From: Phycisphaerales bacterium
GTDB taxonomy: Bacteria; Planctomycetota; Phycisphaerae; Phycisphaerales; UBA1924
Length of the DNA: 64,000 nucleotides
Direction of reading: 5' to 3'
Assembly: GCA_029260435.1 (NCBI GenBank)
Contig: JAJDDG010000142.1
Span: 1-64,000, forward strand
The position numbers and the translations under genes are program-made. Shown here piece by piece: positions 1 through 12,840 of the stretch (position 1 is the stretch's first letter; every line of letters begins with the position of its first letter). The notes below the pieces were generated by a model. That model had not been told where the DNA came from. It was given only the letters and a program-made list of their open reading frames with translations, and searched no databases.

Positions 1-288
1 GAGAACGGCGATGGTCAGGTTCGTCTCGGGGACTGGGACTACGACGTCTGGTGGCAGGTCCATCCGGCTGACATCGTTTATGTTTCGATTCAGGCCCTGC
101 AAGACGATTCTGAGTGTGCTGACGCCGAGCGCCGACATCCAATGGGGAGGAATGTCGTGGTCAATCTCGTGTGGGATCAACGCCGTTCTGCAGTCGTTGC
201 GATCTACGGGACGACCCGTGATTTCCGACCGTTCATCGAGGCGTTTCGAATTGCGTACGGCCTCAAAGAACAGGAGAGCAAAAAATGA
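1..288 (+). CDS. C-terminal end of an unidentified protein (partial)
   Basis: An open frame enters from the left edge and runs for 95 codons to a TGA at 286-288. That stop overlaps the narG start codon (ATG at 285-287) in an ATGA arrangement, so the gene is probably translationally coupled to narG and belongs to the same operon. The visible part is acidic and aromatic-rich near its beginning (GDWDYDVWWQV) and ends in lysines. I do not recognise a family. A small accessory protein of the nitrate reductase cluster is possible from position alone. The start lies outside the window. Confidence 0.6.
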   Translation, partial: ENGDGQVRLGDWDYDVWWQVHPADIVYVSIQALQDDSECADAERRHPMGRNVVVNLVWDQRRSAVVAIYGTTRDFRPFIEAFRIAYGLKEQESKK

Positions 289-3200
289 CGACCACCGCCG
301 AGAACCGCTCTCGCTGGTTTCGCATCGCCGATGAGCCGCGGGACTGGGAGGATTTCTACCGGGAACGCTGGTCGTTCGACAAGTCTGTCCGAACGAGCCA
401 CAGCGTCAACTGTTCCGGGTCGTGCTCATGGGAAGTGTTCGTCAAGAACGGACTGATCTGCTGGGAACTCCAGAAGGTCGATTGGCCCCAGATCAGATCG
501 GACACCCCCAACTACGAACCACGTGGTTGCCAGCGTGGGATTTCCTCATCCTGGTATCCGTATAGCCCGGTCCGCCCGAAGTACCCGTACGTTCGTGGCG
601 TTCTGCTCGACTTCTATGAGTCGGAGCTCGCCAGCGGGAAAAACCCGATCGAGGCGTACGCCGCCATCGTCGAGGATCCTGTGCGGAAACAGAAGTACCG
701 CAATGCACGAGGCAAAGCGGGATGGCGGCGTTCGAGTTGGGAGGTCGCCACTGAGATCTGGGCCGCGTCGATCATCTACACGACCAAGAAGTACGGGGCG
801 GATCACCTCGCGTCGTTCTCGCCCATCCCCGCGATGAGCATGGTCAGCTTCCTGTCGGGGCATCGCCTGTGCAATCTGCTCGGTGGCACGATGCTCAGTT
901 TCTACGAGTGGTACCACGATCTGCCGCACATCATGCCGATGATGTGGGGTGACCAGACCGACGTCGGAGAATCCGCCGACTGGTACCAGAGCACGTATTG
1001 GATGGTCATCGGCTCGAACCTGCCGATGACGCGGACTCCGGACGCCCACTTCGCGTCCGAGCACAAGTACAACGGCGGCAAGATCGTCAACCTTGCGCCG
1101 AACTATTCGGATATGACCAAGTTTGCGGATCTGTGGGTTCCGATCCGCCCCGGGACCGACGCGGCGTTCCTGCTCGCGTGCATCCACGTGATCCTGACCG
1201 AGTGTCACGTTGATAATCCGGTGGCGTACTTCCGCGATTACGTGAAGAAGTACACGAACCTGCCGTTCCTGGTCATGCTCGATGAGCATGATGACGGGAA
1301 GTATCTCTCGGGACGTTTCCTCCGCGCCAGCGACTTCAGCGACCACGACGGTGAAGAAAACGCCGACTGGAAGCTGATGATGATGGACCAGGCCAGCGGT
1401 GACCTGAAGATGCCCGTGGGATCGCTGGGGTTCCGCTGGGAAGAAGAGAAGACCGGACGATGGAACCTCAAGTCCGAGGACGCCGTGACCGGCGAGGCGT
1501 TCGACCCGATGCTCAGTTGCATGAACGGGAGCGGCTCGTACGAAGAAGTTCAGGTTCTCTTCTCCGATTTCACGGACACGTTCGACACGACACTCGGGCA
1601 GACCGAGGGCAAAGGGAAGAACGCCACAGCGATGGCTCGAGGCGTGCCGGCGAAGAGAATCAAGACCAAAGACGGCAAGGAAGTGCTCATCACCACCGCG
1701 TATGACATTCTCCTGGCGCAGATGGGAGTCGGGCGTGGGATGTCGGGCGACTACCCCAAAGACTACGACGACGCATCGGTCCCCTACACGCCTGCGTGGC
1801 AGGAACAGGAGACGGGCGTCTCTCGTGACATGGTCATCCGTGTTGCCCGCGAATGGGCGGAGAACAGCGAGAAGACCGAAGGCAAGAGCATGTTCATCAC
1901 GGGCTCGGGCGTGCTCCACTGGTATCACGGTGGGCCGTTGATCTACCGCGCGATGGCGGTGATGGGCATCTTGACCGGCTGCATGGGCAAAAACGGCGGT
2001 GGGTTCAACCATTACGTCGGCACCGAGAAGATCCGTCCCTACGCCGCGATCGGCACCTTGGGCGGGGCCGCAGACTGGGGTGGCCCACCTCGGCATATGA
2101 ATAGTACATCGTATTTCTACTTCCACACGGACCAGTGGCGGTACGACGGGATGGTGCTCGATCCGATCTGGGCGCCTTGGGCTAAAAAGTTCCCTGCGAA
2201 GGGGAATCACTCTGCCGATCAGAACATGATGGCCGTGCGACTGGGGTGGCTGCCGTTCTACCCGCAGATCGACAAGAAAAACCCGGTCGAGTTTCTCAAG
2301 GAAGCCCGGGCGGCCGGTGCCGAGACGGAGAAGCAGGTCGGCGAGTTTGTCGCCAAGCAGTTCAAGGAAGGAAAAGATCGGTTTGCGCTCGAGGATGTTG
2401 ACGCCGAAGCCAACCACCCGAAGGTGATCTGGATCTGGCGAGGAAACCTGATCGGCACGAGCATGCGCGGGCATGAATATGGGCTGAAGCATCTCCTGGG
2501 CACGCACAACAACGTGCTCGGTGAGGATCGTTCCAAGGAACTCGTCAACGATGTCGAGTGGCATGAAGAAGCCCCGATCGGCAAGCTTGATCTGGTTGTC
2601 AATGTTAATCTCCGGATGGACTCGTCGGCCAACTATGCAGACATCGTGCTCCCCACGGCGCACTGGTATGAGAAGTACGATCTGACCTGTTCGGATCTGC
2701 ATTCGTTCTTCCATCCGTTTACGCCTGCGCATGATCCACCGTGGGAGTGCAAGCACGACTGGGATGTGTTCAAGGCGTGCGCCGCCAAAGTCAGCGAGAT
2801 GGCGAAGGAATACATGCCCGAGCCGTTCGAAGACATGGTGATGACTCCCATGATCACAGATTGCCCCGACGAGATGGCCCAGCCGATGGGTGAGCTCCGA
2901 GACTGGAAGACCGGCGACGTCGAACCTATCCCGGGCAAGACATTCCCCCATGTCAAGATCGTCGAGCGCGATTACACCAAGATCCATGACAAGTACACGA
3001 CGTTCGGACCCAATGTTTGCAAGCCAGAAGGCTACGGGTGCAAGGGCATCAATGGCGATCTATCCAAGGTGTATGAAGAGCTCAAGGAGAGCTATCTCGT
3101 CGGTGAGAAGGATGGGCGGCCATCTCTGGAGCGCGCCGAGCAGGTGTGCGAAGTCATCTTGCGTATCTCACCCGAGAGCGATGGCGAGGTCTCGCACATG

Positions 3201-4061
3201 ATTTTCCAAAACCTGGAAAAGCGTGTCGGCCTGCCACTGGCTCACTTGGTCGAAGGTGATCGCGAGATCCATCATCACTATCCCGAATTGCAATCCCAGC
3301 CACGGCGGAGCCTGACATCTCCGCACTGGTCGGCGATCGAATCGCCGGGACGGACCTACTGCCCCTGGACGATGAACATCGAGATGCTCAAGCCGTGGCA
3401 TACGCTGACCGGGCGTCAGGAGATCTATTTCGACCACCGTGGGTACCGCGAACTCGGCGAATCAATGCCCACGTACAAGCCGCCGGTTGACATGGTGAAA
3501 ATCGGCGATTGCCGGCCGGATCTGGCCGAAGCGAAATCGAAGGTCTTCCGGTACCTGACACCGCACGGCAAGTGGTCGATCCACAGCATGTTCTGGGACA
3601 CGTGGCACATGCTCAACATGTTCCGCGGTGGCCAGGTGGTCTGGATCAACGACGAGGACGCCGCCGAGATCGATGTCAAAGACAACGACTGGGTCGAGAT
3701 CTACAACGAAAACGGGATCGCAAATGTGCGTGCGGTGGTGACCGGCACGATGCCTCGAAGCAGCGTGATCATGTACCACTCGTCCGAGCGCCACATCGCC
3801 GTGCCGTTCTCCCCGTTGGCTCGCAAGCGGAAGATGAGTGATCTGCGTGGCGGCAACAACAACGCACCAACGCGGATCATGATGAACCCGACGACGATGA
3901 TCGGTGGGTACGCGAACTGGACGTATTTCCTCAACTACTGGGGCACGAGTCCGTCGGAGCGTGATTGCGCCGTGCTGATTCGCAAGATGCCTCTGGAGAA
4001 GGGTAAGAAGAAAGTCATCTACCAGGAATCCGAACTTTTGACATTGTATCCCAACGCGTAA
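285..4061 (+). CDS. narG: Respiratory nitrate reductase (or nitrite oxidoreductase) alpha subunit
   Basis: This is the molybdopterin catalytic subunit of a NarGHI-type complex, which reduces nitrate to nitrite or can run in reverse. At 1258 residues it matches the usual NarG length (E. coli has 1247). The N-terminal His39, Cys43, Cys47 and Cys82 set (HSVNCSGSC, then RGCQRG) fits the FS0 [4Fe-4S] site of NarG. The segment WGDQTDVGESADW near residue 225 contains the aspartate that ligates molybdenum in NarG. No twin-arginine signal is present (it begins MTTTAENRSRWF), so the enzyme is expected on the cytoplasmic face. It starts at the ATG overlapping the upstream stop and is followed after 34 bases by narH. 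Sequence inspection alone cannot separate a reductase from a Nitrobacter-type nitrite oxidoreductase. Confidence 0.95.
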   Translation: MTTTAENRSRWFRIADEPRDWEDFYRERWSFDKSVRTSHSVNCSGSCSWEVFVKNGLICWELQKVDWPQIRSDTPNYEPRGCQRGISSSWYPYSPVRPKYPYVRGVLLDFYESELASGKNPIEAYAAIVEDPVRKQKYRNARGKAGWRRSSWEVATEIWAASIIYTTKKYGADHLASFSPIPAMSMVSFLSGHRLCNLLGGTMLSFYEWYHDLPHIMPMMWGDQTDVGESADWYQSTYWMVIGSNLPMTRTPDAHFASEHKYNGGKIVNLAPNYSDMTKFADLWVPIRPGTDAAFLLACIHVILTECHVDNPVAYFRDYVKKYTNLPFLVMLDEHDDGKYLSGRFLRASDFSDHDGEENADWKLMMMDQASGDLKMPVGSLGFRWEEEKTGRWNLKSEDAVTGEAFDPMLSCMNGSGSYEEVQVLFSDFTDTFDTTLGQTEGKGKNATAMARGVPAKRIKTKDGKEVLITTAYDILLAQMGVGRGMSGDYPKDYDDASVPYTPAWQEQETGVSRDMVIRVAREWAENSEKTEGKSMFITGSGVLHWYHGGPLIYRAMAVMGILTGCMGKNGGGFNHYVGTEKIRPYAAIGTLGGAADWGGPPRHMNSTSYFYFHTDQWRYDGMVLDPIWAPWAKKFPAKGNHSADQNMMAVRLGWLPFYPQIDKKNPVEFLKEARAAGAETEKQVGEFVAKQFKEGKDRFALEDVDAEANHPKVIWIWRGNLIGTSMRGHEYGLKHLLGTHNNVLGEDRSKELVNDVEWHEEAPIGKLDLVVNVNLRMDSSANYADIVLPTAHWYEKYDLTCSDLHSFFHPFTPAHDPPWECKHDWDVFKACAAKVSEMAKEYMPEPFEDMVMTPMITDCPDEMAQPMGELRDWKTGDVEPIPGKTFPHVKIVERDYTKIHDKYTTFGPNVCKPEGYGCKGINGDLSKVYEELKESYLVGEKDGRPSLERAEQVCEVILRISPESDGEVSHMIFQNLEKRVGLPLAHLVEGDREIHHHYPELQSQPRRSLTSPHWSAIESPGRTYCPWTMNIEMLKPWHTLTGRQEIYFDHRGYRELGESMPTYKPPVDMVKIGDCRPDLAEAKSKVFRYLTPHGKWSIHSMFWDTWHMLNMFRGGQVVWINDEDAAEIDVKDNDWVEIYNENGIANVRAVVTGTMPRSSVIMYHSSERHIAVPFSPLARKRKMSDLRGGNNNAPTRIMMNPTTMIGGYANWTYFLNYWGTSPSERDCAVLIRKMPLEKGKKKVIYQESELLTLYPNA

Positions 4062-4095: not shown

Positions 4096-5640
4096 GTGCA
4101 AATCAAACAACAGATCAGCATGGTCTTCAACATGGACAAGTGTCTCGGTTGCAACACCTGCACACTTGCGTGCAAGAACGTGTGGACTAATCGCGAGGGC
4201 GCGGAGTACATGTTCTGGAACAACGTCGAGACCAAACCCGGGATCGGCTACCCCAAGCAGTGGGAGAACCAGGAGAAATACAGGGGGGGGTGGCAACGCA
4301 GCCCGACCGGCAGGGGACCCCGCCTGCGCTATGGCTCCCGCTTCCAGATGATGATGAACCTGTTCTACAACCCCGTGATGCCGCAGATGGATGATTACTA
4401 CGGCAAGGGACCCTTCACCTATACCTATGAAGATCTTCATTCCACGACGCCAACGACGAAGTCCCAGCCTGTGGCGCGACCTAAATCGATGATCACCGGC
4501 GAAGAGGACATCGATATTACGTACGCCGTCAACTGGGAAGACAACGGCGCTGGTGCCACCGCCGACGGTCTGGGTGGGATGGATCTCAACTTTGCCGGCA
4601 TGTCCGACACCGAGCGCCGGGCACTGCTGAGTTTCCGCGATTCGTTTATCATGTATCTCCCCCGTATTTGCAATCATTGTCTGAACCCCGGATGCGTCGC
4701 GTCCTGCCCGAGTGGCGCGGCGTACAAGCGTGAGGAGGACGGCATCGTTCTGATCGATCAGAACCGCTGTCGGGCATGGCGCTACTGCGTCTCGGCCTGC
4801 CCTTACAAAAAGACCTATTTCAATTGGCGCACGTCCAAGATGGAGAAGTGCGTTCTGTGCTACCCGAGGGTGGAAACAGGGCAGCCACCAGCGTGTTTCC
4901 ACGCCTGTCCCGGGCGAATCCGGTACATGGGGCCGCTGCTCTACGACCTTGACCGCGTGCCGGAAGTGGCCAATGTCCCCGAAGAGGATCTGGTCCAGGC
5001 CCAGCGCGACATCATTCTCGATCCAAATGATCCGCAAGTCCAGACCGCAGCGGGCGAGGCGGGGATCAGCGACGCGTGGATGGAGGCGTGTGCACGGTCA
5101 CCCGTCTACCGCATGTTCAAGCGGTGGGAGATCGCCCTGCCTCTGCATCCCGAGTTCCGCACACTGCCATGTCTTTTCTATGTTCCGCCCGAGAGTCCGG
5201 TGCGAACCGATAGCGCCAGCAGGGAACATTACAACATGACCAACGAGAGCAGCGTGCTCCCGGATCTTGACGAGTTTCGGATCCCAGTTCAGTTCTTGGC
5301 ATCGATGCTCTCGGCGGGAAACAAGCAGATGGTCGAGATAGCGCTCCTTCGGCAACTCGCGGTTCGGGCTTTCCGTCGCTCGGAGCGAGTAAATGGCAAG
5401 CCCGACCTGGAAATACTCAAATCTGTCGGACTGACTGAGGATGATGCGCGAGAGATGCATCGCCTCCTGGCCCTCGCGCACTTCCACGAACGTTTCGTCG
5501 TGCCGACGACCCGACGCGAACGAACGGCGAACGCGCCCTACGTTGAACGCGGCTACTCGGGATTCAGCGAACTCACACCCAGCGACAAACCGCGCCGGAG
5601 CAGTTTCTTCCACGGGCAGCGCGAAGAAGTAGGGAGCTGA
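4096..5640 (+). CDS. narH: Nitrate reductase beta subunit, four-cluster iron-sulfur protein
   Basis: NarH passes electrons between the catalytic NarG and the membrane subunit. It is 514 residues long, close to E. coli NarH. The first cysteine group is Cys16, Cys19, Cys22 and Cys26. Further groups follow in CNHCLNPGCVASCP, CRAWRYCVSACP and CVLC. In CRAWRYC a tryptophan replaces one cysteine, the same change that makes one cluster [3Fe-4S] in NarH. The start is a GTG preceded by AGGAGG at 4082-4087 with good spacing. The stop is three bases before narJ. A run of eight G near 4286 lies in frame and does no harm. Confidence 0.95.
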   Translation: MQIKQQISMVFNMDKCLGCNTCTLACKNVWTNREGAEYMFWNNVETKPGIGYPKQWENQEKYRGGWQRSPTGRGPRLRYGSRFQMMMNLFYNPVMPQMDDYYGKGPFTYTYEDLHSTTPTTKSQPVARPKSMITGEEDIDITYAVNWEDNGAGATADGLGGMDLNFAGMSDTERRALLSFRDSFIMYLPRICNHCLNPGCVASCPSGAAYKREEDGIVLIDQNRCRAWRYCVSACPYKKTYFNWRTSKMEKCVLCYPRVETGQPPACFHACPGRIRYMGPLLYDLDRVPEVANVPEEDLVQAQRDIILDPNDPQVQTAAGEAGISDAWMEACARSPVYRMFKRWEIALPLHPEFRTLPCLFYVPPESPVRTDSASREHYNMTNESSVLPDLDEFRIPVQFLASMLSAGNKQMVEIALLRQLAVRAFRRSERVNGKPDLEILKSVGLTEDDAREMHRLLALAHFHERFVVPTTRRERTANAPYVERGYSGFSELTPSDKPRRSSFFHGQREEVGS

Positions 5641-5643
5641 GTT

Positions 5644-6336
5644 ATGGCGACCGATGCTCTCAAAGCGGCATGCCAACTCATCGCCGAGCTGCTGCTCAAC
5701 CCCGAGCAGCGCGACGCCCACCGGATCGCTCTGTTCCGGAAGCGCCTTGCTCCGGAGCTTCCGCAGGTCGCAATATTCATCACCGAGTTCCTCGCTGATC
5801 CGGGATCGCAATCTCGCAACGAGTATGTGCAGACGCTCGAGTTGTCACCCTCCTGCCCTCTGTATCTGGGATCTCACCTCTTTGATGAACCCACCACATG
5901 CAGCGGGATCGGTACGTCAGGACGCAACGCCTACATGCTGGAACTGGTGGGGCTCTACGGGCACTTCGGGATCGAACTCAACGGGCACGAGCTTCCAGAC
6001 TTCCTTCCGGTCATGATCGATTTTATGTGGATCAGTCTTGAATCGTCACCCCGGGACCAGCCCGCGCTGCGACGATGGTTCCTCGAGCACCACATGCTGC
6101 CGGGCCTGGATGCACTAGGTGTGTCCTTGTCCAAGTATGAAAGCCCCTACATACACCTTGTGTCCGCATTGCGGGCCGCGGTCGCCGAAGACCTCCGCCT
6201 CATCGGTGATGTCCCTGCCTGGCGGGCACCAGATGCGCCATCCCCCAAGGACGTGTCTTTGCCCGTGCTCACCGAGGCCACCAATGGTCAGGGGCAAGGC
6301 AAGGCGCTCATGGATGATATGGAGGTGCGGGCGTGA
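5644..6336 (+). CDS. narJ: Nitrate reductase assembly chaperone
   Basis: NarJ is a dedicated cytoplasmic chaperone that inserts molybdenum cofactor and iron-sulfur clusters into the NarGH apoenzyme before membrane attachment. The 230-residue, largely helical protein has the NarJ/TorD hallmark ELPDFLPVMIDF near residue 118 and sits in the expected place between narH and the NarI gene. Its TGA overlaps the GTG of the next gene by four bases, indicating translational coupling. Length is normal for the family. Confidence 0.88.
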   Translation: MATDALKAACQLIAELLLNPEQRDAHRIALFRKRLAPELPQVAIFITEFLADPGSQSRNEYVQTLELSPSCPLYLGSHLFDEPTTCSGIGTSGRNAYMLELVGLYGHFGIELNGHELPDFLPVMIDFMWISLESSPRDQPALRRWFLEHHMLPGLDALGVSLSKYESPYIHLVSALRAAVAEDLRLIGDVPAWRAPDAPSPKDVSLPVLTEATNGQGQGKALMDDMEVRA

Positions 6337-8150
6337 GTCCACGCGTATCCGAAACATGGGCGGTCTGTTCAACGCTGGCTCTGGTATCACTGGTGGTGTG
6401 GCTCGTCGTTCGCAGTATCGCCGGTGGCCCCACTACGCCAGCATCAGATGGACAACTGTCGCAGGCACCACCACCTGGACCCCCGCCGGTGGTCCAGGTC
6501 GCATCCGATCCCGAATCAGAATCGCACCAGGCACCCGACTCGGTCGTAACCGATGACCCGAGCCAAGTGCCGGAATCTCAAACATATTCCGTAGTGCAGA
6601 GTTTGCGCGCCCACAGCGGGCTACGGAGCTACGCCAACCCGAGCGAGGCAACACCCATGAATAACTTCCTGTGGGGCGTGTACCCATACCTGTGCATCCT
6701 GCTGTTCTTCCTGGTGCCGATTGCGCGGATGATATTTAGACCGTTCTCATGGAGCACTCGTGCCAGCGGCCTGTTCGGACGCAGAGTGCTGGGGGCGGCT
6801 TCGCTGCTGCTCCACTGGGGGCTTGTGCTGCTGCTCGTCGGTCACGTCGTCGCGCTGATCGGCGGCTTGCTCGGCTCCGGTGCTTCCATCGCATTCTTCT
6901 ACTGGATCGGGTTGCTCGGTGGCCTGATGGTGCTCCTGGGTTCGATCATCGCGCTGTACCGGCGCATTGTCTCGCCCCAAGTGCGGGCGATCAGCCAAAG
7001 CGAAGACTACATCATCCATGTGATCCTCATCACCTTGGTGTGCCTCGCCCTGTATCAGGTTCTTTTTCATCGGATCTTTGGTGTTGCCTACACCGCCGGA
7101 TCATGGGCAGCGAGTCTGTGGACGTTGTCCCCCCAGCCCGAACTGATGGGGTCGGCGAGTCTCCTGACCAAGCTCCATGTGCTGCTGGCTCTCACGTTCT
7201 TTGCCTACTTCCCGTTCACCAAGCTTGTGCACTTCTGGACCTTCCCGGTGAACTATTTCGTCCGCCCGAAGCTCTCGATGCGAACCGTCCGCTACCGCTT
7301 CCAACGCCGCTGGGAGTTCGCGTTGCGCAGCGACAAGTCCTGGCTGGTCTACGGCTTGGGCGCCGTGGCGGGGGTATTCCTGATCTCTGCCGTTTCTCTC
7401 GGGCTGGCAAAGCCACCCGAAGGATCCGGTGTTGACTCTACAACCGAGTTGGTAAAGACCAGGACAGGAACATGGCTGACCGGGTACCCCCTGTATGTGA
7501 GCCAGTGCGCAAGGTGTCACGGGCTCTCCGGGCAAGGCGATGGCCCCGGCGCACACTCCCCAACTTTCGCGGCACTTCCCCGGGATTTCGTGTATCGCGG
7601 CGATCACTTCGGAGCACGCTATCACTTCGTTTCCACGGAAAACGGTATCGCTTCTGATGACGATCTCTACCGCACGATCGCCGAAGGGCTGGGTGATTTC
7701 TCGGGAATGCCAGCTTTCCCCGACCTGACCAACGACCAGATCCTCTCCCTGATCGATGTGCTCAACGGGTTCCGCGCCGATGCGCCAAATCCGGGGCGAC
7801 TGATCCACGTCGGCACCCCACCCCCATCAACCCCGCAGAGCATCACACGGGGGGCGCAGTTGTACCTTGATAACTGCGTAAGCTGTCATGGCGCGGACGG
7901 CACCGGCGGAACGCAGCAGGTCTTCAGTTGGCGTGAACTCGCTCCCGAGGTGCCCCAGGAAATCATCCCGGCGAATCTCGCACTGGGGCGCATCAAGCAG
8001 ATTACCACACCCGAAGACATTTTCAGAAGAATCACTGTTGGCATACCCGGCGCATACGGCGAAGCGAACCTCATGCTGAAGTTCGACCAACTCTCCGTAG
8101 CCGATCGCTGGGCCCTGGTGCATTACGTGACGGAGAACATCTTGCCCTGA
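6333..8150 (+). CDS. narI: NarI-type cytochrome b fused to a diheme cytochrome c
   Basis: This is a 605-residue membrane subunit, against about 225 in ordinary NarI. Residues 10-28 form a membrane segment followed by a proline- and acid-rich linker. Residues 109-330 are NarI-like and keep all four haem b histidines in the usual places (LLHWGLVLLLVGH, and KLHVLL with LVHFW). Another membrane segment near 345-365 leads to two cytochrome c domains with haem motifs CARCH (Cys392-His396) and CVSCH (Cys515-His519). The topology would put both c haems in the periplasm. In known NarI, electrons come from quinol through haem b; the added c haems could pass electrons to or from soluble cytochromes. An internal ATG at 6657 could start a protein without the N-terminal extension. 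The fusion is the unusual feature. Confidence 0.88.
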   Translation: MSPRVSETWAVCSTLALVSLVVWLVVRSIAGGPTTPASDGQLSQAPPPGPPPVVQVASDPESESHQAPDSVVTDDPSQVPESQTYSVVQSLRAHSGLRSYANPSEATPMNNFLWGVYPYLCILLFFLVPIARMIFRPFSWSTRASGLFGRRVLGAASLLLHWGLVLLLVGHVVALIGGLLGSGASIAFFYWIGLLGGLMVLLGSIIALYRRIVSPQVRAISQSEDYIIHVILITLVCLALYQVLFHRIFGVAYTAGSWAASLWTLSPQPELMGSASLLTKLHVLLALTFFAYFPFTKLVHFWTFPVNYFVRPKLSMRTVRYRFQRRWEFALRSDKSWLVYGLGAVAGVFLISAVSLGLAKPPEGSGVDSTTELVKTRTGTWLTGYPLYVSQCARCHGLSGQGDGPGAHSPTFAALPRDFVYRGDHFGARYHFVSTENGIASDDDLYRTIAEGLGDFSGMPAFPDLTNDQILSLIDVLNGFRADAPNPGRLIHVGTPPPSTPQSITRGAQLYLDNCVSCHGADGTGGTQQVFSWRELAPEVPQEIIPANLALGRIKQITTPEDIFRRITVGIPGAYGEANLMLKFDQLSVADRWALVHYVTENILP

Positions 8151-8237
8151 CTCCGCGTCCTGCCCCGCCGCGATCCCGCCATTCGACCACGCTGTATCGA
8201 TCATTCCAGAATGCTTGCTAGATAAGGAACCAAGCCC

Positions 8238-10019
8238 GTGGAGGTCCGTAACAAGGCGACGAGCATCCAGCTCTTCAACATCAAGACGCGCCAGATGCGA
8301 GCGTTCCATATGTCTTGGTTCGCCTTCTTTCTGTGCTTCTTTGCGTGGTTCGGTATCGCGCCGCTCATGGCGGTGGTCCGTGAAGAGTTGGATCTTACAA
8401 AGGTGCAGATCGGCAATACGATCATCGCATCTGTCGCCATCACGATCGTGGCACGCCTGGTTATCGGGTGGTTGTGCGACCGGATCGGCCCGCGCCTGAC
8501 TTACACGTTCTTGCTCATACTGGGCTCCCTCCCGGTGATGGGCATCGGGCTCGCGCAAGACTACACAACATTTCTCCTGTTTCGTCTCGGGATCGGGGTG
8601 ATCGGCGCTTCCTTCGTCATCACGCAATACCACACCTCTGTCATGTTCGCTCCCAACTGCGTTGGAACCGCCAACGCCACATCGGCCGGGTGGGGCAATC
8701 TCGGCGGCGGGGTGACCCAGATGATCATGCCGCTGATCTTCGCCGCGTTCCTCGCCTTCGGGTTGAGCGACGCGGCGAGCTGGCGCCTGGCGATGGTCGC
8801 CGCTGGCGCAGTCTGCTTCTGCACCGGCCTCGCCTACTTCTTCTTCACCACCGACCTGCCAGACGGGAATTTCAAGGAGCTGCGCGCCTCGGGCGAGATG
8901 CCGTCATCCGAGAAACGTGGCTCCTTCAAGTCCGCCGCGAAGGACCACAGAGTCTGGGCGCTGTTCCTGGTCTACGCCGCGTGCTTCGGTATCGAACTAA
9001 CGATCAACAACATCGCCGCGCTGTACTACATCGACTACTTCGGTCTCGGGATCCGGACCGCCGGACTCGTCGCGGGGCTGTTCGGGCTCATGAACATCTT
9101 TGCGCGCACACTGGGCGGCTATATCAGCGACCGGTTCGTGCGGCGAAGCGGGCTGCACGGGCGCGTTCGGTGGCTGTTCATCGCGCTGCTCATCGAGGGC
9201 GTGGCTCTGGTCTTCTTCTCGCAGATGCGGGTGATCGCGCTGGCGATCCCCGTGATGATCATCTTCTCCCTCTTCGTGCAGATGTCCGAAGGCGCAACCT
9301 ACTCGATTGTGCCCTTCATCAACAAGAAGGCCCTCGGCGCCGTCGCCGGCATCGTCGGCGCTGGCGGCAACATGGGCGCGGTCGCGGCGGGCTTCCTGAT
9401 CCGCTCCGAGCACATTACCTACCCCCAGGCTCTGCTGATCCTCGGTGGGCTCGTTTCGATCTGCGCGTTCGCAACATTTCTAGTGCGGTTCAAGCCCGCC
9501 GAGGAGGAGGCCGCCGCCAGAGAGTTCAACGAGGCGATGGCGAGGCGACGCGCCGAGATCGGCGACCGCAAGCCGGTGTTCGAGCTCATCCCCGGCATCC
9601 GCCACATCCACCCGATGGACGCGCTACGGATATACCTCGGTGTCGCACTGGTGATCAAGGGCATCTACTTCATCGTGAACATGTCCGAGCTGGAGCAGTC
9701 GCTCCCGCAAGGGCTTGGCGAGGGGCAGAACATGATCGCGTGGTCGGTCGTCTTTGCGCACTGCATCGCGGGCGCGGGGCTCGCACTTGGATTCGTGACG
9801 CGCGTCGCGGCCGGAGCCAATGCGATCATTCTTCTCGGCGCTGTCATCGTGCATCTCACCGGCGCGACCGGGGGGAGTCTGTTGGGATCCAATCTCAGTT
9901 TCCAGTTCACCCTGTTCGTGTTCTTCTCACTGATGCTGCTGGTGTGGCGCGGTTCAGGCCCGTTCTCGCTTGACCACCTGCTCCGGATCGACATCGAGGA
10001 AGAGCCTCAGATCTTCTAA
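8238..10019 (+). CDS. narK: NarK1-type nitrate transporter fused to a DoxX-like domain
   Basis: Residues about 20-425 form a major facilitator transporter of the NarK type, with the nitrate signature SAGWGNLGGG typical of the NarK1 branch (nitrate uptake, probably with protons) and a second glycine-rich repeat (GIVGAGGNMGAVAAGF) in the other half. Residues about 460-585 add four more membrane segments (LRIYLGVALVIKGIYF, then a glycine-rich GLALGFVTRVAAGANAIILL) that look like a DoxX/quinol-oxidase-type domain. The total of 593 residues is about 150 more than a plain NarK. It starts at a GTG 87 bases after the NarI fusion, with AAGGA upstream. The role of the DoxX part is unknown. Confidence 0.85.
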   Translation: MEVRNKATSIQLFNIKTRQMRAFHMSWFAFFLCFFAWFGIAPLMAVVREELDLTKVQIGNTIIASVAITIVARLVIGWLCDRIGPRLTYTFLLILGSLPVMGIGLAQDYTTFLLFRLGIGVIGASFVITQYHTSVMFAPNCVGTANATSAGWGNLGGGVTQMIMPLIFAAFLAFGLSDAASWRLAMVAAGAVCFCTGLAYFFFTTDLPDGNFKELRASGEMPSSEKRGSFKSAAKDHRVWALFLVYAACFGIELTINNIAALYYIDYFGLGIRTAGLVAGLFGLMNIFARTLGGYISDRFVRRSGLHGRVRWLFIALLIEGVALVFFSQMRVIALAIPVMIIFSLFVQMSEGATYSIVPFINKKALGAVAGIVGAGGNMGAVAAGFLIRSEHITYPQALLILGGLVSICAFATFLVRFKPAEEEAAAREFNEAMARRRAEIGDRKPVFELIPGIRHIHPMDALRIYLGVALVIKGIYFIVNMSELEQSLPQGLGEGQNMIAWSVVFAHCIAGAGLALGFVTRVAAGANAIILLGAVIVHLTGATGGSLLGSNLSFQFTLFVFFSLMLLVWRGSGPFSLDHLLRIDIEEEPQIF

Positions 10020-10055: not shown

Positions 10056-11663
10056 ATGCCCATCAACATCGACAAATGGGATGTCGAAGACAACGAATTC
10101 TGGGAGAGCACCGGCAAGCGGGTGGCGCGCAGAAACCTGTGGATCTCTATCCCCAGCCTGCTGTGTGGATTCGCGGTCTGGCTCTACTGGGGCATCATCA
10201 CCGTCCAGATGCTCAACCTCGGGTTCTCCTTCGAGAAAGCGGAGTTATTCACGCTCATGTCGATCGCCGGATTGGCAGGCGCCACCCTGCGCATCCCCAG
10301 CACGTTCTTCATCCGTATCGCAGGCGGTCGCAACACCATCTTCTTTACAACCGCATTGCTCATGATCCCGGCGATCGGCACCGGCATCGCATTGCAGGAC
10401 CGATCTACGCCGCTGTGGGTCTTTCAGTTGCTCGCGCTGCTGAGCGGTTTCGGCGGGGGCAACTTCGCCTCCTCAATGTCCAACATCAGCTTCTTCTTCC
10501 CCAAACGTGTCCAGGGAGCCTCGCTCGGGCTCAACGCCGGGTTGGGCAACTTCGGCGTCACGACCATGCAGATCCTCGTCCCGCTGGTGATGACATTCGG
10601 CATCTTTGGGGGCGAGTCGATGACGCTTGTGAACTCGAGCGGCACGCTCATCGGAAAAATCGATGCGGGAACCGAGACCTACATCCACAACGCGGGCTGG
10701 GTGTGGCTGGTGTTCCTCATCCCGCTCGCGTTCGCCGGATGGTTCGGGATGAACAATCTCAAAACCGAGTCTGTATCACCGGATGTCGGCGGCCCGCTGG
10801 GGGCGTTCGCAAAAATATCGTTCCTGCTGCTCATCGGATTCGTGACCGCCACAATCGGGCTCTACATCTTGTTACCCCAACCGACCGGTCTGGCCCTGCT
10901 CAGCAAGTGGATCGTCCTGCCGCTCGTGATCGTCGGGACGGTCCTGCTCATGCGCTATCTGAGTTGGGGTGATCTCAAACAGAACCTCAAACGTCAGTAC
11001 CAGATCTTCAAGAACAAGCACACGTGGGCAATGACAGTCATCTACACGATGACGTTCGGATCGTTCATCGGATACTCCGCGGCCTTCCCGCTGTCGATCA
11101 AGGTGATCTTTGGCTTCCAGCATATCACCAACGCCGATGGCGTCCTCACGCACGATATCGTCAACCCAAACGGCCCCAGCGCGCTGATGTTCGCATGGAT
11201 GGGACCGTTCATCGGGGCTCTGATCCGCCCCGTCGGTGGCTGGATCTCAGACAAGGTCGGCGGGGCAAAGGTAACCCAGATTGTCTCCATCGTGATGATC
11301 GCTTCGGCGCTCGGCGTCGCCTACTTTATGAGCAAGGCGTACGTCTCCGAGACACCAGAACAGTTCTTCTGGCCCTTCTTCATCCTCTTCATCGTCCTCT
11401 TCACCGCTACCGGAGTCGGCAACGGCTCGACCTTCCGCACCATCGCCGTTGTATTCGACAAGGAACAGGCGGGCCCCGTCCTCGGCTGGACCTCTGCCGT
11501 CGCCGCATACGGTGCCTTTATCATCCCGAAGGTCTTCGGTGAACAGATCAATGCCGTCACCCCTGAGTACGCGTTGTACGGCTTCGCAATGTTCTACTTC
11601 GTCTGCCTCGTCCTCAACTGGTGGTTCTATCTCCGACCCAATGCGTATGTGAAGAACCCCTGA
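10056..11663 (+). CDS. narK2: NarK2-type nitrate/nitrite antiporter
   Basis: This is a 535-residue major facilitator transporter, expected to exchange nitrate for nitrite across the inner membrane. It carries both nitrate signature motifs: NAGLGNFGVT in the first half and GVGNGSTFRTIAVVF in the second. The N-terminus (DNEFWESTGKRVARRNLW) is typical of NarK2 proteins. It follows the NarK1-DoxX gene after 36 bases and precedes the COX3-like gene by 25 bases, so it is very likely co-transcribed. A NarK1 plus NarK2 pair is a known arrangement in nitrate respirers and would import nitrate and then swap it for nitrite. Confidence 0.92.
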   Translation: MPINIDKWDVEDNEFWESTGKRVARRNLWISIPSLLCGFAVWLYWGIITVQMLNLGFSFEKAELFTLMSIAGLAGATLRIPSTFFIRIAGGRNTIFFTTALLMIPAIGTGIALQDRSTPLWVFQLLALLSGFGGGNFASSMSNISFFFPKRVQGASLGLNAGLGNFGVTTMQILVPLVMTFGIFGGESMTLVNSSGTLIGKIDAGTETYIHNAGWVWLVFLIPLAFAGWFGMNNLKTESVSPDVGGPLGAFAKISFLLLIGFVTATIGLYILLPQPTGLALLSKWIVLPLVIVGTVLLMRYLSWGDLKQNLKRQYQIFKNKHTWAMTVIYTMTFGSFIGYSAAFPLSIKVIFGFQHITNADGVLTHDIVNPNGPSALMFAWMGPFIGALIRPVGGWISDKVGGAKVTQIVSIVMIASALGVAYFMSKAYVSETPEQFFWPFFILFIVLFTATGVGNGSTFRTIAVVFDKEQAGPVLGWTSAVAAYGAFIIPKVFGEQINAVTPEYALYGFAMFYFVCLVLNWWFYLRPNAYVKNP

Positions 11664-11688: not shown

Positions 11689-12840
11689 ATGTACGAGCAA
11701 CACGAGATAATTCACGACACCAACCCCCGCAAGACCATTCGCATGGTGATGTATCTGTTTCCTGCGGCGGTTCTCCTGCTCTATGTCGTGATAGGGCTGG
11801 CCCAGTTTGCTGTTCGATTCGTCTCTCCGAGCCTCTTTGCCTGGGGGGGCGAGTTCCTGACCGCGCAGCACGGCTTGGCAAACACACTCACTCTGATCCT
11901 GAGTTGTGTCCCGATCGCCGTAGCGCGGCGCATCACACCCCAGACCAACCGATGGGCGATGATCACGGCCCTGAGTGCGACATTCCTTGGCGGTGTGGTG
12001 TTCCTCGCGGTCCAGTCGGTCGAGTACGAAAACACCTTCCGTCAGGGGCTCGGATGGCCCACACCGATCACCGGAGCACCAGCGACCGCGTCCGCCGATG
12101 GCGCGACGGGCGAACTGGGTTCGGGCAACGTCCGGGCAGGGCAGGATCGCTGGCAGGCGACATGCCAATCCTGCCACGGTTCCGCTGGCGAGGGCGTCGA
12201 GGGCCAGGGCAAGGATCTTCGTCAGAGCCAGTTCGTGCAGGGTCTGGATGATCCCAGCCTGCTCGCGTTCATAAAAGTTGGGCGCCCTGTTGCCGATCCG
12301 CTCAATACAACCGGAAAGCCCATGCCCCCCAAAGGCGGAAACCCACTGCTCAAAGACCCGCAGTTGATGGATATCGTCGCCTACGTCCGCAGCATCCAGA
12401 TCTCGAACACCATCGCACCTTCCGAGGATGCAGAGTCTGATGCCAATGCGGACGTGCCCCCCGCCGATGGTGATGAAGACCTAGGCGCACAGATCGAGAC
12501 AGGCCCGCCTGTGCAGGTCGAATCCGCCGACGAGTTCTGGATTCCCCGCTCGAGCGTGCCGCTGGCGGCTCTTGGGCCCACGGGGCTGAGCCCGCAGGCG
12601 CTTCAGTCCGCGCCCCGTCCCGCCCGCGCCAATCTCTTCTTCGCCTTCTTCTTCCTCATAACCGGATTGCACACTGTGCAAGTGCTCCTCGGGCTTGTGA
12701 TCCTCGCGTGGTTCATCTTCCACGCTGTGCAGATCCCGTATCAATCCTCCCGTGATCTCCCGGTGGACCTTGTGGCTCGCTACTGGTATTTCGCCGTCGC
12801 CATCTGGATCATTCTCTTTCCAATGTTTTACTTCATTTGA
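11689..12840 (+). CDS. COX3-like membrane protein with an inserted cytochrome c domain
   Basis: This 383-residue protein combines two folds. Residues 17-110 contain three membrane segments that read like the start of haem-copper oxidase subunit III, including the QSVEYENTFRQGL segment after the third helix. Residues about 120-245 are a cytochrome c domain with one haem motif, CQSCH (Cys159-His163). Residues 305-383 return to the COX3 pattern (FFFLITGLHTVQVLLGLVI, then YWYFAVAIWIILFP at the very end). COX3-like proteins of the NorE type occur with nitric oxide reductases, so a role in nitrogen-oxide respiration is plausible but inferred. No subunit I gene lies in the window. It is the last intact gene of the nar cluster. 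Confidence 0.8.
   Translation: MYEQHEIIHDTNPRKTIRMVMYLFPAAVLLLYVVIGLAQFAVRFVSPSLFAWGGEFLTAQHGLANTLTLILSCVPIAVARRITPQTNRWAMITALSATFLGGVVFLAVQSVEYENTFRQGLGWPTPITGAPATASADGATGELGSGNVRAGQDRWQATCQSCHGSAGEGVEGQGKDLRQSQFVQGLDDPSLLAFIKVGRPVADPLNTTGKPMPPKGGNPLLKDPQLMDIVAYVRSIQISNTIAPSEDAESDANADVPPADGDEDLGAQIETGPPVQVESADEFWIPRSSVPLAALGPTGLSPQALQSAPRPARANLFFAFFFLITGLHTVQVLLGLVILAWFIFHAVQIPYQSSRDLPVDLVARYWYFAVAIWIILFPMFYFI

Follow-up and report, generated by a model that had tools for sequence, protein, structure and literature searches.

A NarI subunit fused to a dihaem cytochrome c in a planctomycete nitrate reductase operon

The nar operon and the layout of the fused subunit

The first operon of the window, the stretch of 64,000 nucleotides of Phycisphaerales DNA analyzed here, has the order narG-narH-narJ-narI::c2-narK1-narK2 followed by a COX3-like gene, with all genes on the + strand (Table 1). 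The narGHJI arrangement, together with the retention of the Fe-S and Mo ligands, identifies the encoded enzyme as a member of the NarGHI family. The source genome has a single NarI, and no NarI match was found in the other sampled genomes of its own family; the fused operon is thus patchy in distribution and may have moved laterally. Close relatives of the DoxX-tailed NarK encoded by narK1 occur in unfused narC-type operons, whose Nar core belongs to another lineage. The COX3-like gene is retained 3' of narK2 in those fused operons that are long enough (L029, L032, L033, L035 and L037). The cytochrome c domain of its product sits between the helices of the protein, a relative of which adjoins a dihaem cytochrome in L091.

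Table 1. Genes of the first operon of the window and segments of the fused subunit (positions are nucleotides of the window; res, residues of the encoded protein).
Feature	Position	Strand	Remarks
narG	285..4061	+	cytoplasmic-type protein of 1258 aa that has the FS0 ligands and the Mo-ligand Asp (D212); YHDLPHIMP beside Mo
narH	4096..5640	+	15/15 cluster Cys kept, also the CxxW of the 3Fe-4S site
narJ assembly chaperone	5644..6336	+	weak profile match and conserved place
narI::dihaem cytochrome c fusion	6333..8150	+	605 aa; GTG start, 4-nt overlap with narJ
N-terminal transmembrane helix (res 9-29) and periplasmic linker (res 30-108)	6357..6656	+	separate small ORF in L030, L032, L035 and L039
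NarI domain, res 109-325	6657..7307	+	haem-b ligands H161 (nt 6813), H171 (6843), H282 (7176), H300 (7230)
remodelled TM2-TM3 periplasmic loop, res 172-190	6846..6902	+	shorter than in unfused NarI; lacks the capping Pro and any Lys/Arg at the E. coli K86 position
extra transmembrane helix, res 335-356	7335..7400	+	predicted to carry the chain to the periplasm
cytochrome c domain 1	7482..7802	+	CXXCH at nt 7506-7520; candidate Met ligand M459
cytochrome c domain 2	7803..8147	+	CXXCH at nt 7875-7889; candidate Met ligand M581
narK1	8238..10019	+	NarK-type MFS transporter, C-terminal DoxX domain
narK2	10056..11663	+	NarK/NarU-type transporter
COX3-like membrane protein, inserted cytochrome c domain	11689..12840	+	

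The initial annotation described the product of the fourth gene as a complete NarI, with its four haem-b histidines, that carries two CxxCH cytochrome c domains on the same chain, and both parts of this description were borne out. The reading frame is uninterrupted over its whole length. Residues 110-317 match the Pfam family Nitrate_red_gam (PF02665; E 7.7e-48, profile positions 1-215 of 217) with a score of 163 bits against a cutoff of 22.9, and the NCBIfam narI profile (TIGR00351) is matched with 109.1 bits, above its cutoff of 105.55. Residues H161, H171, H282 and H300 align with the haem-b ligands H56, H66, H187 and H205 of E. coli NarI, and these four histidines are invariant across all NarI tested, fused and unfused. 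Pfam also recognizes two cytochrome c stretches in the protein (E 8.8e-17), with CXXCH motifs at residues 392-396 and 515-519. Because a downstream Met (M459 and M581) is conserved in 13/13 fused proteins, His/Met ligation of both c haems is likely.

E. coli NarI has five helices, with the N-terminus in the periplasm and the C-terminus in the cytoplasm, so that a C-terminal cytochrome c domain can only be periplasmic if the chain crosses the membrane once more. A conserved helix at residues ~335-356 follows the NarI domain, and the cytoplasmic stretch before it is strongly basic, consistent with a positive-inside topology; the helix is predicted to place the c haems in the periplasm, as haem c attachment requires. 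An AlphaFold model of the fused protein, of moderate confidence (mean pLDDT 65.5), includes this extra helix, and its fold matches both E. coli NarI and a Kuenenia dihaem cytochrome (6h5l_B). The suggestion that the fusion gives the complex a periplasmic electron port thus agrees with the topology, and we consider it very probable that this b-haem subunit has a dihaem c port of its own. The N-terminal membrane segment, also annotated initially, is present in the ORF but lies outside the core of the design. In L030 (~8690-9060), L035 (~4145-4500), L039 (~7980-8345) and likewise L032, the helix and linker (6333-6656 in the window) form a separate small upstream ORF that stops right at the narI start, which rules out the helix as a core element. 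The segment (residues 1-108) is joined in frame in about half of the loci, namely in the window and in L029, L031, L033, L034 and L036. It probably originated as a small accessory subunit and was later joined to NarI.

Authenticity of the fusion and family of its cytochrome

A search for the same domain order recovered the fusion at 12 other loci, in records L029-L038, which come from other assemblies and show 50-83% identity, and in the genomes G421 and G704; L039 is interrupted by its contig end. Two of the records, L031 and L033, are the two copies of genome G337, and L036 is the copy of G291. Among named records, the closest is a Phycisphaerales MAG, L029. Most of the loci compared come from MAGs, and one of them, L038, is a Verrucomicrobia contig of 5.4 kb that could be misbinned. 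In the NarI tree, the construction of which had been suggested with the initial annotation, and in the NarG tree as well, the fused loci form one clade with a support of 100/100, composed of Planctomycetota and the Verrucomicrobia contig and separate from Thermus, E. coli, the actinobacteria and the unfused Planctomycetota. The full-length fusion was not found among plasmid records.

A frameshift, or an error of assembly, that joined two genes could be suspected, as the window comes from a metagenome-assembled genome that is 92% complete, with its 3.1 Mb spread over 172 contigs, and evidence of a frameshift had been named at the outset as what would overturn the fusion. The fusion, however, recurs in many independent assemblies whose copies are of 50-83% identity and fall in one clade. 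Moreover, a comparison of the window with L029 gave dN/dS values of about 0.05-0.18 in every segment and of about 0.07 over the joint; changes across the joint are mainly at third codon positions. Selection across the joint between NarI and the cytochrome is purifying. The independent loci and the codon-position pattern refute an artefact, to which we give hardly any credence. The fusion of NarI with a dihaem cytochrome c appears undescribed in the literature searched, in which we found no description of it; many subscription papers were outside the reach of that search. A study of MAGs from an Oslofjord tunnel includes a NarG tree with nitrate reductase-like sequences from Planctomycetota, and its text names neither narI nor a fusion (PMC10732223).

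The initial annotation pointed to Thermus NarC as a separate protein with a related task. Thermus NarC is indeed the nearest functional precedent, but the fused cytochrome falls outside the NarC subfamily. Against a profile built from the fused cytochrome, planctomycete dihaem proteins, EB_dh-domain gamma subunits among them, reach 90-110 bits; Thermus NarC reaches only 15 bits, compared with 113 bits against a profile of planctomycete NarC. By sequence, the closest solved structure for residues 384-603 is that of Kuenenia kustc0458 (PDB 6h5l_B; 4e-20), the partner of a HAO-like protein. By these comparisons, the fused cytochrome belongs to a dihaem family that includes kustc0458 and is also present in gamma subunits of planctomycete type II DMSO reductases. 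Those proteins (the EB_dh gamma subunits have an N-terminal dihaem c domain) are partners of HAO-like or type II DMSO-reductase enzymes rather than of NarI. One such arrangement was seen in L091 (309-2153), where one chain combines a dihaem cytochrome c with a gamma subunit domain of the EB_dh type, as in type II DMSO reductases. The profile comparison rules out that NarC itself was fused to NarI, and the window locus has no separate narC gene upstream of narG.

Many other Planctomycetota have narC-G-H-J-I operons with true NarC orthologues (113 bits) and an unfused NarI (L080-L086, L094, L135, L138, L141-L143 and L146). These operons come from the same phylum as the fused ones, have similar narK genes and also tie a dihaem cytochrome c to Nar, but their narC lies upstream of narG, they often continue downstream into alternative complex III genes, and their NarG and NarI proteins form clades apart from the fused clade. 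Since the cytochrome of the fused lineage is not NarC, a dihaem cytochrome c has been linked to Nar by two separate routes within one phylum. The NarCGHI complex of Thermus thermophilus likewise combines Nar with a periplasmic dihaem cytochrome c beside NarI; there, however, NarC is encoded by its own gene and belongs to another cytochrome subfamily, and NarI keeps an Arg at the position of E. coli K86.

Thermus mutants without NarC have a soluble, immature NarG (PMC7694296), and by this precedent the fused cytochrome might act mainly in assembly or membrane attachment, with a minor part in turnover. We find such a role improbable: none of the 13 proteins has lost a CXXCH motif or a Met ligand, and both c domains are under purifying selection.

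The quinol-site loop and the NarG motif

E. coli NarGHI has the same subunit set as the fused complex, the same haem-b and Fe-S ligands, the Mo-ligand Asp and a cytoplasmic NarG. In contrast to the fused protein, E. coli NarI stops after the five-helix b domain, carries no c haem, has a longer TM2-TM3 loop and contains K86, a residue of the quinol site; its solved structures include a K86A mutant and a complex with a Q-site inhibitor. When counted between fixed alignment columns, the TM2-TM3 periplasmic loop, which lies next to haem bD, has 29 residues in 13/13 distinct fused forms and 32-36 residues in the 58 distinct unfused ones, a shortening of 3-7 residues. A capping Pro, present in all 58 distinct unfused loops, is absent from every one of the 13 fused loops. 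At the position of K86 the fused proteins have Ala, Ser or Trp, and none of the 13 has Lys or Arg; most unfused NarI of Planctomycetota have Arg. Thus, fused NarI has neither the basic residue nor the full loop of a canonical quinol site. The missing Lys or Arg bears on function rather than on family, and is suggestive only: actinobacterial NarI have Tyr and a small group of unfused planctomycete NarI has Phe at this position, so that residue 86 alone is no proof of a loss of quinol use. The altered loop as a whole suggests that the enzyme is connected to the cytochrome c pool, either in place of the quinone pool or in addition to it.

The fused clade also differs at the active site. The motif YHDLPHIMP beside the Mo-ligand Asp (NarG residues ~206-217) was found in 6/6 NarG proteins of the fused clade that were tested, whereas NarG of unfused Planctomycetota, Thermus and proteobacteria has YCDLPxxxP and that of actinobacteria YADLPVASP. 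The motif may bear on catalysis or on its direction.

Electron-chain partners and the direction of electron flow

Five genomes with the fusion were surveyed for partners of the complex: the window genome (G000), G337, G291, G421 and G704. All five have an aa3-type oxidase. Genes for alternative complex III adjoin it in four of them (G000, G337, G421 and, in part, at a contig end, G291), and G704 alone yielded a bc1-type cytochrome b. A survey of the class Phycisphaerae described narGH together with an alternative complex III that replaces bc1 in Phycisphaerales (PMC11266412). A Cu nitrite reductase (nirK) is absent from 5/5 of the genomes, and for NirS the window genome yielded no more than a weak, partial match. 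Only the window genome has a NorB-like gene, which is divergent; the other four have a single haem-copper oxidase, of the aa3 type, and no NorB-like gene.

These partners bear on a branch of the kind known from Thermus, where respiration of nitrite and NO in the absence of complex III depends on NarC and electrons run outward (PMC7694296). With this precedent, quinol would be oxidized at NarI, whose haem-b ligands and Gly next to H66 (E. coli numbering) are retained, and the c haems would pass electrons to periplasmic nitrite and NO reductases when nitrate is scarce. Such a branch is quite unlikely in our judgement, and as the main role of the cytochrome it is disfavored: the quinol-site loop is altered, the cytochrome lies outside the NarC subfamily, and the reductases that would accept the electrons are those largely missing from the five genomes.

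Textbook Nar receives its electrons from quinol. Because periplasmic acceptors of the Thermus type are mostly missing and a reductant of the cytochrome c pool is present, we favor nitrate reduction driven by the c pool and rank nitrite oxidation as its first rival. Our best reading, which we hold at about an even chance, is that the fused complex is a cytochrome c:nitrate oxidoreductase fed by alternative complex III. Electrons would enter the fused c haems from the periplasmic cytochrome c pool, which alternative complex III would reduce, and would pass through haem bD and haem bP to NarH, NarG and the Mo center. With its quinol site weakened or lost, the enzyme would act mainly on cytochrome c, and nitrate would replace O2 at the end of the chain that feeds a caa3 oxidase. 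Electron flow from the periplasm to the cytoplasm would be electrogenic, so that more energy would be kept than by direct oxidation of quinol. The inward direction itself we likewise regard as evenly poised. Counting against a cytochrome c:nitrate oxidoreductase are the Tyr and Phe at position 86 of some unfused NarI, the moderate quality of the model and the bc1-type cytochrome b of G704. In Streptomyces, Nar1 depends on a bcc-aa3 supercomplex, whose dihaem QcrC was proposed to pass electrons to haem bD (PMC7931247). There too a dihaem cytochrome c would deliver electrons to NarI at haem bD, but QcrC is part of complex III, whereas here the cytochrome is part of NarI.

Run in the opposite direction, the same complex could be a nitrite oxidoreductase: nitrite would be oxidized at the cytoplasmic NarG, and electrons would leave by way of haems bP and bD, and then the c haems of the fusion, to reach a soluble cytochrome c and a caa3 oxidase. 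Nitrite oxidation with a NarC-like cytochrome was proposed for Nitrobacter (reviewed in PMC7694296), and the aa3-type oxidase in 5/5 fused genomes, the altered quinol-site loop, the changed NarG loop beside the Mo-ligand Asp and the two NarK-type transporters, which could exchange nitrite and nitrate, are all consistent with it. Nevertheless, electrons that pass from nitrite into the c pool would move against the membrane potential, the survey of Phycisphaerae genomes saw no sign of chemolithoautotrophy (PMC11266412), and the octahaem cytochrome and NrfC/NrfD-type genes of the window genome suggest onward reduction of nitrite. Moreover, NarG scores only 90 bits to Kuenenia-type NXR and 1166 bits to E. 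coli NarG, which excludes an NxrA-like alpha subunit of the Kuenenia/Nitrospira type, although the family profile cannot separate the NarG-type NXR of Nitrobacter from Nar. On balance, nitrite oxidation appears unlikely, if a serious rival.

Returning to the cytochrome c:nitrate oxidoreductase, we tentatively suggest, as a bolder proposal with somewhat less than an even chance, that this is a Nar that makes no use of quinol and is driven by the periplasmic c pool. Alternative complex III and Nar would then together constitute an energy-conserving nitrate respiration, akin to that of complex III with cytochrome oxidase, and the same hardware could act as a nitrite oxidase in unsuspected planctomycetes of oxygen-poor seas. 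The possibility of a Nar driven by cytochrome c has already been considered in Streptomyces spores, and electron flow in the reverse sense in Thermus and Nitrobacter; the covalent attachment of the cytochrome to NarI, together with the altered quinol loop, makes the question of a cytochrome-driven Nar testable with one polypeptide. As several MAG names, if read literally, point to marine oxygen-poor waters, a c-linked wiring of Nar may bear on the turnover of nitrate and nitrite there.

Two further gene clusters of the source genome encode multihaem or haem-copper-like proteins. On contig C156 (L078, 6892-10675), the octahaem cytochrome is encoded together with the NrfC- and NrfD-like genes, a cluster that is possibly a quinol-linked nitrite reductase; multihaem matches of the family of this octahaem cytochrome were also found in G291 and G421. 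On contig C89 (L077, 8433-10687), the gene for a dihaem cytochrome precedes that for a divergent haem-copper-like protein, which scores 66 bits to COX1, has no PDB match and is possibly an unusual NO reductase.
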